Below are positions 8,652 through 14,186 of a stretch of 64,000 nucleotides of DNA, one piece after another. The notes under the pieces are model-generated. The model did not search any database, was not told where the DNA came from, and saw only the letters and a program-made list of their open reading frames with translations. The stretch is from Sulfurimonas sp. HSL1-2. Lineage in GTDB: Bacteria; Campylobacterota; Campylobacteria; Campylobacterales; Sulfurimonadaceae. Both the position numbers and the translations under genes were made by a program. The stretch is from positions 803,573-867,572 of the forward strand of contig NZ_CP147914.1 of NCBI RefSeq assembly GCF_039645565.1. Direction: 5' to 3'. Each line of letters opens with the position of its first letter. Within the stretch, counting starts at the first letter, position 1.

Positions 8652-9458
8652 TCAGGCCGGCAGGGCTTTGCTTTGGTGGCGGAATATTTTGTATGCCGAC
8701 ACCATCAGCACGACGGCCAGCAGCAGGATCAGCATGTCGCTGGAAACAGCGCCGAGCAGTGCCGACCCCGCGGCGGCACCGATGATCGAACCGAGGGCCA
8801 GCGCGATGAAGAGAGGCTGCTCTTCACGCAAAACGACAAAAGCCTGGCTCCTGGTATAGCGGGCGAAGCCGACGAGCATGGTCGGCAGGCTGATGGCCAG
8901 CGAGAGACTGCCCGCCAGTTTCACGTCGATGCCGTAGAGCAGGACAATAACGGGAATAAGCAGCTCGCCGCCCGCGACGCCCAGCATCGACGCCACGACA
9001 CCGATGCCGAACCCCGCCGCGATGCCCGCGGCAATTTCCACCGGCAGGGAGTCGAAAAGGGCGCCGTTCTGCGTCGGGAGGAACCAGTGCTCCAGCAGCA
9101 GTACCGCCGCAAGAAACAGCAGCAGCACGAGCACAATACGGTCGAGTGTCTGTTCACTGATCTTCATCGCGATCCCTGCCGCGATCCACGCGCCCGCCAA
9201 GGAGCCCAAAAGCAGGTTGAAAATGATGCTTTTGTATTCCCATATCTGTTCGAAAGGAATCTCATGGGATCGGAAAATCAAGGCAAAGAAAACGACGATC
9301 AGCGAGGTCGCTTTATTGAGGATAACCGCCTGGAGGGTCGCCAGCCGAAAAAGCCCCTTGAGAATCGGCAGCCGGAACTCTGCGCCGCCCAGGCCGATAA
9401 GCCCGGCCAGCGTCGCAACGGCACCCCCGGCACCAAATCCCTGGAGAAAACGTTTCAT
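8652..9458 (-). CDS. Sulfite exporter TauE/SafE family membrane protein
   Basis: A 268-residue integral membrane protein with about eight hydrophobic segments and the two-fold pseudo-repeat of the TauE/SafE (DUF81) family, including the Gly-rich GFGIGVVASMLGVAGGELLIPV that marks the second repeat. The family exports sulfite, sulfoacetate or other small organic anions. In a sulfur-oxidising campylobacterotan, sulfite or sulfur-compound efflux is plausible, but the substrate is inferred. No Shine-Dalgarno sequence is obvious before the ATG at 9458. The neighbouring methyltransferase lies in the same direction about 60 bp upstream. Confidence 0.87.
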   Translation of the reverse strand: MKRFLQGFGAGGAVATLAGLIGLGGAEFRLPILKGLFRLATLQAVILNKATSLIVVFFALIFRSHEIPFEQIWEYKSIIFNLLLGSLAGAWIAAGIAMKISEQTLDRIVLVLLLFLAAVLLLEHWFLPTQNGALFDSLPVEIAAGIAAGFGIGVVASMLGVAGGELLIPVIVLLYGIDVKLAGSLSLAISLPTMLVGFARYTRSQAFVVLREEQPLFIALALGSIIGAAAGSALLGAVSSDMLILLLAVVLMVSAYKIFRHQSKALPA

Positions 9459-9518: not shown

Positions 9519-10238
9519 TCAGTAGATCCCTGGAAACAGGTGATAGCGTACACGCTCTGCATAATCAGGGTAGCCCGGCAACTCTTCCTGGAGCGTTCTG
9601 TCTTCAAGCGCAGTTCGGATCACGGCGATGACCAGTGCCGCTGCGGCCGGGATAAGGGTCCACAGGGAGTCCAGTGCGACGATGATGCCGGCAAGGGCCA
9701 GGAGGTTCCCGGCATAGCCCGGATGCCGGACGAAGGTGTAAGGGCCGCTGTCGCAGACCGTATGCCCGCGCTCCGTCTGGATACGCACCGTCGTGGCAAA
9801 AAAGCGGTTCTCGACGATGGCCCAGGCGGCAAATGCGTACCCGAGCACGATGAGGACAAGCCCAAGAATATTAAGCCATACCGGCATCAGCGGCGTCCAC
9901 CCATAGCGGTGGTCAAGTCCCGCAACGATGACAAGAGGAAACGAGAGGCTCAGGGCCATCAGCGGTGCGAGAATTTTGTCCCACGGTTTCGCACTTTTGG
10001 CCTTCTCCATGCTGGCCCGTTCTGCGAGAATCCCGGGATGCCGCTTTTCTGCAAAGTAACGCCCGCCGATACCGGCGGCAAATATGAGCACGGAATAGAC
10101 CCAGCCCTGCCACCAGCCCCAATCGCCTCCGCAGAGCAGCAGTACCAGCGGGATGATGAGGTAGAGGAGAACCAGGTTAAGCCACAGTCGGCGGTTCGTA
10201 GCCTGATTTGTGTTTGGATCTATGGTATTCGTGCTCAT
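9519..10238 (-). CDS. Isoprenylcysteine carboxyl methyltransferase (ICMT)-family membrane protein
   Basis: A 239-residue membrane protein with five or six transmembrane segments. The C-terminal half carries the ICMT/PEMT-like signature: SGPYTFVRHPGYAGN near residues 160-175, followed by a conserved EExLxxxxGxxYxxY-type tail (QEELPGYPDYAERV) and HLFPGIY at the end. Family members methylate lipid-linked or hydrophobic substrates using S-adenosylmethionine. Bacteria lack prenylated CaaX proteins in general, so the substrate is unknown. The ATG at 10238 has GGAG about 8 bases upstream and is preferred over an in-frame ATG six codons earlier. Confidence 0.82.
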   Translation of the reverse strand: MSTNTIDPNTNQATNRRLWLNLVLLYLIIPLVLLLCGGDWGWWQGWVYSVLIFAAGIGGRYFAEKRHPGILAERASMEKAKSAKPWDKILAPLMALSLSFPLVIVAGLDHRYGWTPLMPVWLNILGLVLIVLGYAFAAWAIVENRFFATTVRIQTERGHTVCDSGPYTFVRHPGYAGNLLALAGIIVALDSLWTLIPAAAALVIAVIRTALEDRTLQEELPGYPDYAERVRYHLFPGIY

Positions 10239-10299
10239 CGTTTTACTCCGAAACAAAACATCTCTACTCCCTTGTCATGAAATAGACCGGTTTTGTGCT

Positions 10300-10527
10300 C
10301 TACTTCCCTCTGCTTTCAAATCTCGTGAGAGTGTCGCTGAGATATTTCCGTATCTCCTTTAACGACTCATGCGCCTGGACATATTTTTCTCTTATTTCCG
10401 GTTCATCAAAATAAAAATCGTCGCGATCGTACGTTCCGATCTGTTTGAGGTTTTCAAAAGCCATATCGATGTGCTGAATGCGCTGTTCGATGCTTCTGAT
10501 CAGTATCTTTTGATGATGTTGTGACAT
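10300..10527 (-). CDS. Small hypothetical helical protein (75 aa)
   Basis: Not recognised. The protein is hydrophilic with a high helical propensity (IRSIEQRIQHIDMAFENL and ESLKEIRKYLSDTLTRF), has no signal peptide, membrane segment or cysteine, and could form a short coiled coil. ATG at 10527 is preceded by AAGGAAAA at good spacing, supporting a real gene. It lies just downstream of the OXA cassette in the same direction and could be the chromosomal flank of the integron or a last degraded cassette; no attC is found on either side of it. Confidence 0.55.
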   Translation of the reverse strand: MSQHHQKILIRSIEQRIQHIDMAFENLKQIGTYDRDDFYFDEPEIREKYVQAHESLKEIRKYLSDTLTRFESRGK

Positions 10528-10685
10528 TAATTTTCCTTGTTTGGGTTGACTCTTTTAGGCTGTTCGACTGCATATTCGGCATGATGATTCTTCAGCGCTA
10601 TAGAGTCTATATGCATGATCCGCTCTTTTGCTTTTACTCATCTCTTTTCGTCATAGAACACGTGAAATGAGTAACTGGGAAACCA

Positions 10686-11492
10686 TTATATCAGGCCCAG
10701 AAGTTTCAAACTCGCTTTTGCCAGTTTGACGCGCTCCTTTGCATCAGAGGGTTTTTTGATGTCAATATTCAGGGCAAACACGTAAAAGTGCCCTTTTTTC
10801 TCCAGCCATCCCACCAGCCAGCCGACGCCGTTGTTCGGAGCGTTCTGCCATCCGGTTTTACCGTAGAGCTTCCAGTCTGCCCCCTCTTCGAGCAAGAGGA
10901 TCTCCCGCACGCTTTCTTGCACCTGTTTCGGAAGCGGCAGTCTGTTCTGAACGAGTCCGGTAAGGAACTCCACCTGTTCGAGTGCGCTGATCTTGAGCGG
11001 CCCGTCGAGCCAGAATCTGTCAACAACTTTTCCCGTCTCCTCGTTGCCGTAATGGAGTTTGACGAGGCCGGCACGCATACGTTCAAGACCGATGCGCCGT
11101 GCAAGTTCCTGGTAGATCGGTACGTTGGAGATGGCGATGGCCCTGCACAACCCCATATCATGTCCCCACTCCGGAATAAAAGGCTTGGCTGGGCCTTTGT
11201 AGGGCAGGGGCTCATCCACGCTTTTGACGACACCCGACGAGAGCCCGATGAGCGCGTTGGCAATTTTAAAAGTCGATGCGGGGATATAGCGTGTTTCAGT
11301 GCGGGTTTGGTTGTATCCAATGAACGCATTCCCAGTCATATCGTAGAGTATGAACGTTCCGTCGACATTCGCATTGTGAAAGAGCTCGGCAATCTTGGCA
11401 TTTTCTTCCCAGCCGAAACCTACCGTCGGAAAGAGCAGAAGGGCTACTATGATGAGCCTGAATCTTTTCCTACGTACGGGGTGCATGTACAT
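10686..11492 (-). CDS. Class D (OXA-type) beta-lactamase, integron cassette gene
   Basis: Serine beta-lactamase hydrolysing penicillin-type drugs in the periplasm. The 268-residue protein has a signal peptide (cleavage near residue 27) and every class D motif: STFK at 73-76 (acylated Ser73, carboxylatable Lys76), SNV at 122-124, YGN at 148-150, WLDG at 161-164 and KTG at 212-214, followed by GWLVGW. All catalytic residues are intact, so the enzyme should be active; spectrum cannot be predicted. Start codon 11492 lies only 10 bases from the attC core, with AAAGGT as ribosome-binding site, as usual for cassette genes. It is the last cassette of the array and has no attC of its own. Confidence 0.95.
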   Translation of the reverse strand: MYMHPVRRKRFRLIIVALLLFPTVGFGWEENAKIAELFHNANVDGTFILYDMTGNAFIGYNQTRTETRYIPASTFKIANALIGLSSGVVKSVDEPLPYKGPAKPFIPEWGHDMGLCRAIAISNVPIYQELARRIGLERMRAGLVKLHYGNEETGKVVDRFWLDGPLKISALEQVEFLTGLVQNRLPLPKQVQESVREILLLEEGADWKLYGKTGWQNAPNNGVGWLVGWLEKKGHFYVFALNIDIKKPSDAKERVKLAKASLKLLGLI

Positions 11493-11501
11493 TTATGTGA
11501 C

Positions 11502-11571
11502 CTTTAACGTTTAAAATGAGCAATCAAAAAGCAACCCGCGGGTTTTTGATTGGTCCCCTGTTTTGTTAGGT
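11502..11571 (-). other. attC site 1 (between LysE and OXA cassette genes)
   Basis: Read on the minus strand, the 70-bp site begins with ACCTAAC (matches RYYYAAC) and ends with GTTAAAG (GTTRRRY except the last base). Inside are perfect 10-bp inverted repeats CAATCAAAAA / TTTTTGATTG (11521-11530 and 11543-11552) around a GC-rich tip. The stop codon of the LysE gene (TAA, 11568-11566) lies inside the core, a typical cassette feature. The site is strikingly similar to attC site 2. Confidence 0.88.
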
Positions 11572-12168
11572 TCTATAAAGCAATAGAGACCCTGTGCCGA
11601 TCATTACACTCCCGGCAATTTCATTCATCTGCTTTTGCGTCCGTTCGTTTTTGAAAAGTTGTCTCGCACGGGATGCCGAATAGGCATAAAACGACATGAC
11701 CGCACCCAGAATGGAAGAGACGATAAAGGCTATGGAGAAAACATCCAAACTGCTCAGTGCATTCAAGTCTACAAATGTGGGTAGAAATCCCAGATAGAAC
11801 AAGATGACCTTTGGATTGCCGAGCGTTATGGAGAGGCCGCTTAAAAAGCGGTGCTTTTTTGAAGCGGTGATTTCCATTTTTTCCGGATGCGACCGCCACA
11901 ATTTAATCCCCAGCCAAATCAGGTACCCCGCGCCCAGATACTTGATAATAAGAAACATTGTTTCAAATGTTTCTGAGATGGCCGCAAGACCGAAAATCGC
12001 GAACAGAAGAAATATCAAATCACCCGTAACAATCCCTGCGATAACAGGCAACGTATTTCTGAATCCCGAAGCCAAAGCTTTGGATACGGTAATAAACACT
12101 CCGGGCCCCGGTGTCACGGCTAAAACAAACATGGCGGCAGATAAACCTGCAATACTGTAAAAAGTCAT
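11566..12168 (-). CDS. LysE/RhtB family amino-acid exporter, cassette gene
   Basis: A 200-residue inner-membrane protein of the LysE/RhtB superfamily with about six hydrophobic segments. The N-terminal family signature is present: VTPGPGVFITVSKALASG near residues 18-35 and a GLSITLGNPKVILFYLGF block near residues 110-127. Members export amino acids or their derivatives such as homoserine lactone or threonine. Its ATG overlaps the TGA of the cupin gene (ATGA), so the two are translationally coupled and form a two-gene cassette. Its TAA stop lies within the attC core. Confidence 0.88.
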   Translation of the reverse strand: MTFYSIAGLSAAMFVLAVTPGPGVFITVSKALASGFRNTLPVIAGIVTGDLIFLLFAIFGLAAISETFETMFLIIKYLGAGYLIWLGIKLWRSHPEKMEITASKKHRFLSGLSITLGNPKVILFYLGFLPTFVDLNALSSLDVFSIAFIVSSILGAVMSFYAYSASRARQLFKNERTQKQMNEIAGSVMIGTGSLLLYRT

Positions 12169-12527
12169 GGTTCTACTCTAATTTGTGGTACATTTTCTCG
12201 ATCACCATGGCTTGGTGGTGTGGATACCACTAAAAATTCCAAATCTTTTTCATGTTCATTGCTCAAGGTGTGTGCAATACCGGCAGGAATATGAAAGCCT
12301 TCATGCGGATGGAGGATGTGTATTTCGCCTGCCACTTCAAGCGTTGCAATACCGGAAAGAACGTAGAAGAATTGTTCCGCCTTCTTATGAAAGTGGCGAG
12401 TCTCACAGGAACCTTTGGGCACGCGTTCCTGAATCACGCTTAGGTTTTTAGAAGCAGCAAGGTGCCAACCTTCGCAGTTGGTAGCCCATACATAATGATC
12501 AGCATTTTTTACAGAAACGATTGGCAT
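12165..12527 (-). CDS. Cupin-domain protein, cassette gene
   Basis: A 120-residue single-domain cupin. Motif 1 is visible as the CETRHFHKKAEQFFYVLSG segment (HxH-like pair and Glu, near residues 40-58) and motif 2 as HPHEGFHIPAGIAHTL (near residues 73-88). His residues in both suggest a metal centre. Small cupins of this type bind sugars, amino-acid derivatives or act as isomerases/oxygenases; the substrate is unknown. Coupling to a LysE-type exporter hints at modification or sensing of an exported amine or amino acid. ATG at 12527 has GGGAG upstream and is 13 bases from the attC 2 core. Confidence 0.85.
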   Translation of the reverse strand: MPIVSVKNADHYVWATNCEGWHLAASKNLSVIQERVPKGSCETRHFHKKAEQFFYVLSGIATLEVAGEIHILHPHEGFHIPAGIAHTLSNEHEKDLEFLVVSTPPSHGDRENVPQIRVEP

Positions 12528-12540
12528 TTGATACTCCCAT

Positions 12541-12611
12541 GTCTAACGTTTAAAATGACAATCAAAAAGCCGCTCGCGGGTTTTTGATTGGTCTCCACTG
12601 ATTTGTTATGC
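12541..12611 (-). other. attC site 2 (between the membrane-protein and cupin/LysE cassettes)
   Basis: Read on the minus strand, the 71-bp site begins with GCATAAC and ends with GTTAGAC (a perfect GTTRRRY). It contains the same perfect 10-bp inverted repeats as attC 1 (12559-12568 and 12581-12590) around a CCGC-GA-GCGG tip. The GCATAAC core is the exact complement of the GTTATGC core at 13092-13086, as expected for the two ends of one circularised cassette. Inferred cassette 1 extent: 12547-13091. Confidence 0.9.
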
Positions 12612-12614
12612 ATC

Positions 12615-13067
12615 TTATTCAAAGGTGACGTATTTATTTTTTACCAAATATTCTAACGACGATAAGTTCTTTACTTTTGTTGTCAGTTCTGGAACTCTCG
12701 CGCAAATTCCCCATCCTTCTTTTGGTTTGAGAATTTTATCTTCTGAGTATTCATGATATCCGGATTGTGAAATATCTGTGCTAAAACCGGGTTTGAAAAC
12801 AGCTATATCCCATTCGACCTTTGTAACAACACTATCGCTAGCATTGCCAATAATTATATGAAGCGGATAAGGTTCCTTACATTCATCCGGTGAAAATTTA
12901 ATTATCACTGCTACTTTTTCTATTTCCTTTTCTTTTGTCCAATCTTGATAATAGAAATACGCTCCCAAAACTGCCACAATTGCTACTACAACTCCTGAGA
13001 GAATAAGCATCTTCCTAGTAAAGTATATAAATAATGCCAAAACTATTGCTGCAGCAACCCATTCCAC
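12615..13067 (-). CDS. Hypothetical small membrane-anchored protein, cassette gene
   Basis: Not recognised. The 150-residue product has two adjacent N-terminal hydrophobic segments (about residues 3-15 and 21-40). A soluble domain with beta-rich character follows, with CKEPYPLHIIIGNAS and EGWGICARVP segments containing two cysteines. This looks like a membrane-anchored domain of the kind common among integron cassette products. The start is a GTG at 13067 preceded by AAAGGAAT; the TAA stop is 4 bases from the attC core. Base composition is clearly AT-rich compared with flanking chromosomal genes. Confidence 0.7.
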   Translation of the reverse strand: MEWVAAAIVLALFIYFTRKMLILSGVVVAIVAVLGAYFYYQDWTKEKEIEKVAVIIKFSPDECKEPYPLHIIIGNASDSVVTKVEWDIAVFKPGFSTDISQSGYHEYSEDKILKPKEGWGICARVPELTTKVKNLSSLEYLVKNKYVTFE

Positions 13068-13085: not shown

Positions 13086-13092
13086 GCATAAC
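13086..13092 (-). other. Integron attachment core (attI-side) GTTATGC
   Basis: On the minus strand GTTATGC marks the proximal boundary of the first cassette, between the cassette gene and the intI remnant. It is complementary to the GCATAAC core that opens attC 2, the pairing expected between the two ends of one cassette. The rest of an attI site cannot be recognised by eye because attI sequences are not conserved. Confidence 0.6.
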
Positions 13093-13112
13093 TATTTATT
13101 CATTTCCAAAAT

Positions 13113-13315
13113 ATGTCATATTGCTTGAATATCGATAGATACCTGGAAACGAAGAGTGTCCTAGTGTCAGCTAAATAATCGCAATATTAAACAAATTGAA
13201 ATATATCTGTTAATACTACGCTTTTTTTCTTAAAGCTGCAGAGACGTATATAATCTACACGCACGACGTGGTGGAGCTGAACAAGGAGAGCATCAAAAGC
13301 CCGCTGGACTTTTGA
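13113..13315 (+). pseudogene. intI: Integron integrase (intI) remnant with large internal deletion
   Basis: Both ends of an IntI-like tyrosine recombinase can be read. From the ATG at 13113 the plus strand encodes about 21 residues including IDRYLETKSV, similar to the FxRYLExK opening of many IntI proteins, before a stop at 13176. In a different frame, 13238-13315 encodes AETYIIYTHDVVEL...KSPLDF-stop, which matches the extreme C-terminus of IntI: the catalytic Tyr context xIYTH, then a gap and SPLD. The intact gene would be nearly 1 kb, so most of it, including the Arg-His-Arg residues and the IntI-specific insertion, is gone. The C-terminal match is strong; the N-terminal one is suggestive. 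The orientation, divergent from the cassettes, is canonical. Confidence 0.75.
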
Positions 13316-13328
13316 AATAGGAGGGAAG

Positions 13329-14186
13329 CTAGGAAGGCAGCACGTCTTGCGAACCGTTCGGGACTTTCTCTGTGGCGCTTTTTGCGGCAGATACGCTTTC
13401 GTGGTGCGCTTCGACTTCGACCGTCTTGCGGAACATGGAGTGCGTGAGGACGATGACGTTGAACACCGGGGTGATGTAGGCGGCGAAGGGGACCAGCGAG
13501 AGCAGGTAGAGCCCCAGCGTCGTCATCCTCACCTGCCCGCCGTGGAAGGCCATGATGAGCTTGAAGCGCTCCTTGGTCGTCGTTTCCGAGGCGACGTCGA
13601 GCAGGTAGAGCTTGTGGAACAGGTAGTAAAAGGGGAGATTGAAGGCCACGAGGTTCAGCAGCGGGACAAAATAGAAGGGCGTCAGCACCAAAAAGAGCAG
13701 AAGCATGATGAACACATGCTTCAGCGAGGCCAGGATGATGCCCGCGATGGAACCGTGGTGCTCCAGCGGCAGGTGGCTGTAGTGGCGCCGGTGTATCTCT
13801 TTGACGATGTAGGGGGTAAGGAAGCCGATGATGATCAGCGCGATGAACATGGCAAAGATGAATGTGATAAACCCGCCGACGGTAAAGACGATGAAGCTGA
13901 CCAGCCAAGAGGTGACGGTATGCTCCATCAAGAAGCGCAGGATGGCCGAGCCCCCTTCGACCGTCGTCGTTTCGTGCTGCGTCTCGACCACGCCGTTCTG
14001 CTGTGTCTGCTGGTGCTGCTCTATCTGAAGCGTACTCTCGCGCAGCGAGTCGATGCCAGCGTCGGCAATGCCGAAAAAGAGCGTGTACATGAGCAGGATG
14101 GTACCCAGGAAGGGGATCAGCGCGAACTGGAGCATCCGTTTGGAAAAGAAGTCGCGGATGCTGATGGAGAGGAGTGTTTCGTTCAC
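13329..14186 (-). CDS. EI24/CysZ-like multi-pass membrane protein
   Basis: A 285-residue inner-membrane protein with four to six long hydrophobic segments. The arrangement and the ALxxxxxxxPxxYFxPLLN...FNLPFYYLFHKLYLLD region resemble the EI24 (etoposide-induced 2.4) domain family, which includes the sulfate permease-like CysZ. Whether this one moves sulfate is not shown. The C-terminal 30 residues are hydrophilic. Its ATG overlaps the TGA of the upstream ytfJ-like gene (ATGA, 14183-14186), so the two are coupled. It ends 14 bases beyond the intI remnant, so the integron inserted immediately downstream of it. Confidence 0.7.
   Translation of the reverse strand: MNETLLSISIRDFFSKRMLQFALIPFLGTILLMYTLFFGIADAGIDSLRESTLQIEQHQQTQQNGVVETQHETTTVEGGSAILRFLMEHTVTSWLVSFIVFTVGGFITFIFAMFIALIIIGFLTPYIVKEIHRRHYSHLPLEHHGSIAGIILASLKHVFIMLLLFLVLTPFYFVPLLNLVAFNLPFYYLFHKLYLLDVASETTTKERFKLIMAFHGGQVRMTTLGLYLLSLVPFAAYITPVFNVIVLTHSMFRKTVEVEAHHESVSAAKSATEKVPNGSQDVLPS

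Follow-up and report, generated by a model that had tools for sequence, protein, structure and literature searches.

A class D beta-lactamase gene, probably a former cassette, at the far end of a Sulfurimonas chromosomal integron that has lost its integrase

CALIN elements are defined as two or more attC sites without an integrase (PMC10295459) and are described as formed by loss of intI (PMC8618304). Campylobacterotan integrons and CALINs left by loss of intI have already been described (PMC8618304; PMC10295459; PMC2426708), and Sulfurimonas autotrophica is listed with an In0 plus a CALIN (PMC10295459); in Treponema, the chromosomal integron was lost in one clade (PMC3607928). Integron-associated genes from metagenomes include OXA-2, OXA-10 and an OXA-9-like gene (PMC7370490), and at least 27% of resistance cassettes were assigned to Xanthomonadales, Spirochaetes or Vibrionales via their attCs; Campylobacterota are not among the 11 taxon models as listed in that source (PMC8352920). 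In the literature covered, to which most subscription journals do not belong, no report of a campylobacterotan integron with an OXA gene was found.

The DNA analysed here (the window) is a stretch of 64,000 nucleotides (64 kb) from the chromosome of Sulfurimonas sp. HSL1-2. The locus resembles a CALIN element and fits the definition: its array has two attCs (16 in the genome), intact intI is absent, and a scar shows that it arose by intI loss. It differs from CALIN elements in that both an attI and the intI scar can still be seen, so that the route is documented and not assumed. The features, in window coordinates, are:

9519 to 10256, minus strand: ICMT-type methyltransferase, the distal flank of the array in all four complete genomes of the genus
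10293 to 10538, minus strand: ORF75 block (ORF 10300-10527), non-cassette DNA that bounds the OXA unit on its distal side
10655 to 10691, minus strand: possible but unestablished remnant of an attC belonging to OXA (ATATAAT at the stop codon, followed by TTACTCATTT...ACGTGTT)
10686 to 11492, minus strand: class D beta-lactamase gene (OXA-50-like; OXA), 268 aa, all catalytic motifs intact, signal peptide likely
11501 to 11505, minus strand: AAAGG, probable ribosome-binding site as read from the sequence, overlapping the end of the upstream attC
11502 to 11571, minus strand: attC of the cupin/LysE cassette, 85.9 bits, R'' ACCTAAC, R' GTTAAAG; the OXA unit is bounded at its 5' end by this R'
11566 to 12168, minus strand: LysE-type exporter, second gene of the cupin/LysE cassette (PF01810, 2.1e-40), 93.9% nucleotide identity in G191
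12165 to 12527, minus strand: cupin-domain protein, first gene of the cupin/LysE cassette (PF07883)
12541 to 12611, minus strand: attC of the ORF150 cassette, 90.8 bits, R'' GCATAAC, R' GTTAGAC
12615 to 13067, minus strand: ORF of 150 aa (ORF150) without family match, the cassette sitting in attI
13089 to 13234, no strand assigned: attI block, sharing 88% identity with the one before the intact intI of G305
13232 to 13312, plus strand: C-terminal scar of the integron integrase (KAAETYIIYTHDVVELNKESIKSPLDF), tblastn E 1.7e-7 to the IntI of G305
13329 to 14186, minus strand: EI24/CysZ-type membrane protein, the integrase-side flank of the array in all four complete genomes of the genus

Along the minus strand, with coordinates falling, the array runs from the intI scar and attI block through the ORF150 cassette and the cupin and LysE cassette to OXA, ORF75 and the ICMT-type gene. 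The identity between the attI blocks of the window and of G305, a genome of the same genus, ends at the GTT crossover, and the scar corresponds to the end of the intact IntI of G305 (325 aa). The locus is therefore a former chromosomal integron that has lost its integrase. Intact intI is absent from the single-contig genome, in which the best IntI match reached 58.8 bits against a curated cut-off of 265. Only one of the eight genomes of the genus holds an intact copy (G305, 420.6 bits), and it is carried by a second array elsewhere (L070 17354-18331). Remnants of intI lie at the locus studied here in G191 (start and end), in G305 (C-terminal scar) and in G288 (KSIKSPLDF, recognized by eye). 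The sequence-only reading had seen the attC and OXA and had proposed an environmental chromosomal integron array. The array is real (two attCs, attI block, intI scar), and what had been overlooked were the attI block, the scar and the genome-wide loss of intact intI.

Three observations concern the wider genus. A second integron platform is present in G305 (L070) and, as array B, in L061, L073 and L075; its intI is intact in G305, whereas the three remaining complete genomes have no intact intI at the equivalent site. At the place of the second array, G191 has retained the attI block and lost intI. A TauE/SafE-like permease gene (8652-9458, read from its translation) is present in the window and absent between the same neighbours in G191.

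The attC sites were detected with a covariance model (R1) built from 41 copies in four genomes of the genus; both attCs of the window are among these training copies, and their scores of 85.9 and 90.8 bits are partly so by construction. Only two sites were found in the window, two further listed matches being the same sites on the opposite strand, and 16 in the whole genome at E<=1.6e-7, most of them also in the training set. Evidence independent of R1 came from four genomes, with 24 pairs of adjacent attCs between them. Where IntI has built the array, a cassette should begin with letters complementary to the R'' of its attC. When the 3-base 5' ends were compared with their own R'', 54 of 72 letters agreed, while shuffling gave an expectation of 26.3 (p = 5e-5); R'' and R' of one same attC agreed in just 38 of 111. 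The junction of the ORF150 cassette, read from the sequence, is an exact match (5' end GTTATGC, R'' GCATAAC), and the cupin/LysE cassette contributes only 1 of 3 letters to the agreement. The strand complementary to the coding strand of the cassettes also folds more stably (-11.8 and -13.0 versus -9.0 and -9.5 kcal/mol), as is expected of an attC. By these signatures the repeats are attC sites proper. Of 397 campylobacterotan genomes, 61 have sites of the R1 type, many of them with several sites dispersed over the genome; by genus, the type occurs in 22 of 68.

The OXA frame was scored against the NCBIfam class D model NF012161 (equivalog) and passed with 274.8 bits (cut-off 250). The class D motifs follow in order (STFK 73-76, SNV 122-124, YGN 148-150, WLDG 161-164, KTG 212-214) and stand in register with those of OXA-10, OXA-48, OXA-23 and OXA-58 in an alignment that also included OXA-2 and OXA-1; the intact enzyme gene claimed beforehand is thereby borne out. 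The product is predicted to be a periplasmic serine beta-lactamase of class D. Its best-scoring NCBIfam subfamily is OXA-50-like, with 283.9 bits, which is far below the cut-off of 580 for the OXA-50 family proper (NF000432); by that cut-off the predicted protein is a relative of the OXA-50 group and not a member. Its best relative of solved structure is 4ied (224 bits). Four transpeptidase-family matches, OXA among them, were found in the 2.52-Mb genome; the other three are open frames of 611-649 aa and therefore PBP-like. The GC content of OXA is 52.9%, versus 58.2% for the window, which counts in favour of its entry as a cassette.

The R' box and the ATG of OXA are nine bases apart (11493-11501), close to the spacing of 10 bases noted beforehand, and the 5' boundary of OXA falls, as in a cassette, at a GTT crossover (GTTAAAG, 11502-11508). 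This clean R' junction, which also supplies the AAAGG, speaks against the account in which OXA arrived by another route (an ICE, or transformation and illegitimate recombination), came to lie merely beside the last attC and never was a cassette. So does the sister genome G191, where the same OXA (90% protein identity) lies in the same array and again starts immediately behind an attC, this one half deleted and belonging to another cassette. G191 carries three extra cassettes between LysE and OXA, and with a different attC upstream, the neighbour of OXA was therefore changed by cassette traffic.

The other end of the gene speaks for this alternative route, as the distal attC was not found. None was detected behind OXA by R1 at E<=5 in the window, no attC-like score in an unfiltered scan of 10200-10900 exceeded 6.1 bits, and no R'' was found for comparison with the 5' end; no recognizable attC lies directly behind OXA in G191 either. 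The earlier statement that the distal attC is missing stands, as does its corollary that the gene is fixed in place, for which deletion of the integrase is a second and larger cause that had been overlooked. A remnant of an attC of OXA's own behind the stop codon is possible from the letters at that point. For the corresponding stretch in G191 (TTACTCATTTTA), which was picked after the sequence had been seen, 0 of 3070 background windows scored as well as an attC remnant, but 13 of 2000 mono-nucleotide shuffles did. The copy in the window is weaker (112 of 3070 and 144 of 2000, respectively). The 5' half of the candidate did not exceed chance in either genome, and the covariance model called no attC there (E 5.9 in G191).

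Also in favour of a cassette, attCs occur beyond OXA on the distal side: in G191 one lies at L059 6936-7005 (37.5 bits), and in G288 the array extends to the ICMT gene (attC at L072 7731-7801, 32.4 bits). The ORF75 block lies elsewhere in the chromosome in G288 and G305, and the 7 kb covered there contain no attC of the R1 type. Being non-cassette DNA there, ORF75 implies that the array also takes in DNA by other routes, which favours a non-cassette arrival of OXA. The 75-aa protein of ORF75 was found in 4 of 151 genomes of the family, all of this genus, beside OXA in two and elsewhere in two.

The nearest relatives of OXA also lean towards a non-cassette arrival, as they lie in plain chromosome or in an ICE-like element. 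The nearest homologue (G500, 68% identical) is in an ordinary chromosome. Homologues from Sulfurimonas and G328 are 56-61% identical, and in G328 and Sulfurimonas STC_53 the gene is part of a shared ICE-like element that also carries tyrosine-recombinase and type I restriction genes (named from reading their translations); the two copies are colinear for about 8 kb. Against an ICE as the vehicle, such DNA is absent at the G191 locus (no match of L059 to L089 outside OXA). A contig labelled Woesearchaeota (L085) holds campylobacterotan ICE-like DNA that is 95% identical to G328 over 2.5 kb; the label is probably a binning error. Weighing both ends of the gene, we regard arrival by another route as a distinctly less probable explanation, and entry of OXA as a cassette whose own attC was later lost as the probable one, judged from the sequence. 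For the cassette capture proposed by the sequence-only reading, then, the R' junction is real; an attC belonging to OXA is absent and the nearest homologues are not cassettes, which leaves capture itself as deduction.

Trees of 120 and 53 rows were built, G500 being in the latter only. The OXA proteins of the window and of G191 grouped with those of G500, G328 and Sulfurimonas (97/91 support, 53-row tree), in a clade that lies inside the gammaproteobacterial OXA-50-like proteins and apart from Campylobacter-type and other campylobacterotan OXAs. The phylogenetic comparison suggested beforehand thus placed OXA among OXA-50-like proteins. Its likeness to this group (Pseudomonas, Azotobacter and other gammaproteobacteria) lies in the nesting and in the subfamily score, and it is 55.8% identical to an Azotobacter plasmid gene; it is unlike them in its score so far below the family cut-off, in its campylobacterotan host and in its setting in an integron remnant. 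Matches to OXA were found in 4730 plasmid records, none above 60% identity, and in no viral contig. The suggestion of an ancestral cassette of clinical OXAs is accordingly unsupported, no plasmid relative exceeding that identity.

That OXA could be an old vertical gene of the lineage, beside which an integron has grown, draws on the class D matches found in 79 of 397 campylobacterotan genomes (40 of 228 in the family). These matches are, however, spread over several distant OXA lineages. Within the genus only two of eight genomes, the one studied and one of the seven others (G191), have any class D match, the other genomes of the genus being without OXA, and in the two other complete genomes the array of attCs at this site lacks it. 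This explanation is largely refuted and is the least probable of those considered. The case named beforehand as decisive against capture, OXA in the same setting in relatives free of integron features, was not found; both copies in the genus lie in the array.

OXA loci were scanned with R1 for other OXA cassettes. An attC abutting OXA was found at 1 of 78 loci (G292); these 78 included 48 of the 80 genome-contig loci, the remaining 32 lying outside the scan. A further scan gave 2 of 27 (G282 and G474), with L201 (E 0.75) left uncounted. In three genomes of the phylum an attC thus adjoins the stop codon of OXA or lies close behind it:

L175, 10971-11812: OXA of G292
L187, 1417-2345: OXA of G282
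L189, 1433-2253: OXA of G474

The first is a textbook cassette (5' GTTATAT, R'' ATATAAC over the stop codon), and an intact intI (403.6 bits) lies on a different contig of its genome. The OXA of G282 has an attC on both sides, the one behind read by eye, and that of G474 an attC behind only; the nearest plasmid relative of the G282 gene is OXA-198 (44.7%). These three cassettes resemble the locus studied in phylum and in attCs recognized by the same model; in them OXA lies directly before an attC. They form a separate lineage, 34-38% identical to the OXA of the window and 69-91% among themselves, with distal attCs intact. The integrons of the phylum therefore do take up OXA genes as cassettes. 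For the lineage of the gene studied, the search for the same gene with an attC elsewhere, proposed beforehand, yielded no copy with its own attC in the phylum.

Genes of the OXA-10, OXA-2 and OXA-1 types are gene cassettes of class 1 integrons. With these, the gene studied shares a class D frame behind an attC and a short 5' leader; unlike them it is chromosomal, immobile and without its own attC, and the identity is only 30-37%. Closer is an OXA of Providencia rettgeri plasmid pPROV002-IMP (WP_172693599.1), of the same OXA-50-like group and 51-52% identical. It is a true class 1 integron cassette, its 5' GTTAGGG matching R'' CCCTAAC exactly, and differs in being mobile and plasmid-borne, with attC and intI1 intact. 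At L081 4995-5777 (NZ_MH882484.1), an OXA-50-like cassette in a class 1 integron with IMP-4, the gene table of the plasmid gives a CDS and no predicted resistance gene. A generic attC detector applied around 80 named OXA homologues gave 2 matches against 8 in shuffled sequence and proves nothing alone; an earlier, stricter version failed to find the class 1 positive control and was abandoned. One of the 2 matches is in Methylobacter sp. BlB1, where an attC-like site lies 7 bases behind the stop of an OXA-50-like gene (L094 5998-6862) and looks real by its position; its R'' did not match a cassette 5' end, and a further attC-like stretch, recognized by eye, lies about 400 bases upstream.

We favour the reading that the class D gene is the last gene of a chromosomal integron that has died. 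OXA would have entered the array as an integron cassette, and the R' of the attC before it (GTTAAAGG) would have become its 5' end and ribosome-binding site. Its own attC would have been lost later, perhaps on landing of the ORF75 block behind it, and deletion of intI would have frozen the array. Between the genome studied and G191, dN/dS of OXA is 0.34, nonsynonymous changes being below the neutral expectation (binomial p 3e-4); such continued purifying selection argues that the enzyme is probably still made and active, and that OXA is expressed we infer. That OXA may instead be decaying, or have another role with beta-lactamase activity gone, is suggested by the same value, which is several-fold above those of its neighbours (0.06-0.09 for three flanking chromosomal genes, Fisher p 6e-5; ORF75 0.08, LysE 0.10, cupin 0.14) and could mean relaxed constraint, and by promoter-like sites, which were not above chance (6 found versus 5.2 expected). 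The rarity of nonsynonymous changes and the reading frame and catalytic motifs, intact in both genomes, make such decay improbable.

On the favoured reading, the locus records the stepwise death of an integron, with attI left, the integrase reduced to a scar and a beta-lactamase gene stranded. More tentatively, the chromosomal integrons of the phylum may form a network that shares attCs and has taken up class D genes more than once (the cassette lineage of G292, G282 and G474, and the unrelated OXA-50-like gene described here), and so act as a natural pre-clinical workshop in which OXA genes are turned into cassettes. The campylobacterotan attC model can be used for scanning resistance cassettes. 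The finding bears on the source of cassette-borne OXA genes, for which this locus and the three OXA cassettes are a concrete place to look, and offers a wild example of how gene-capturing elements can hold resistance genes outside hospitals.
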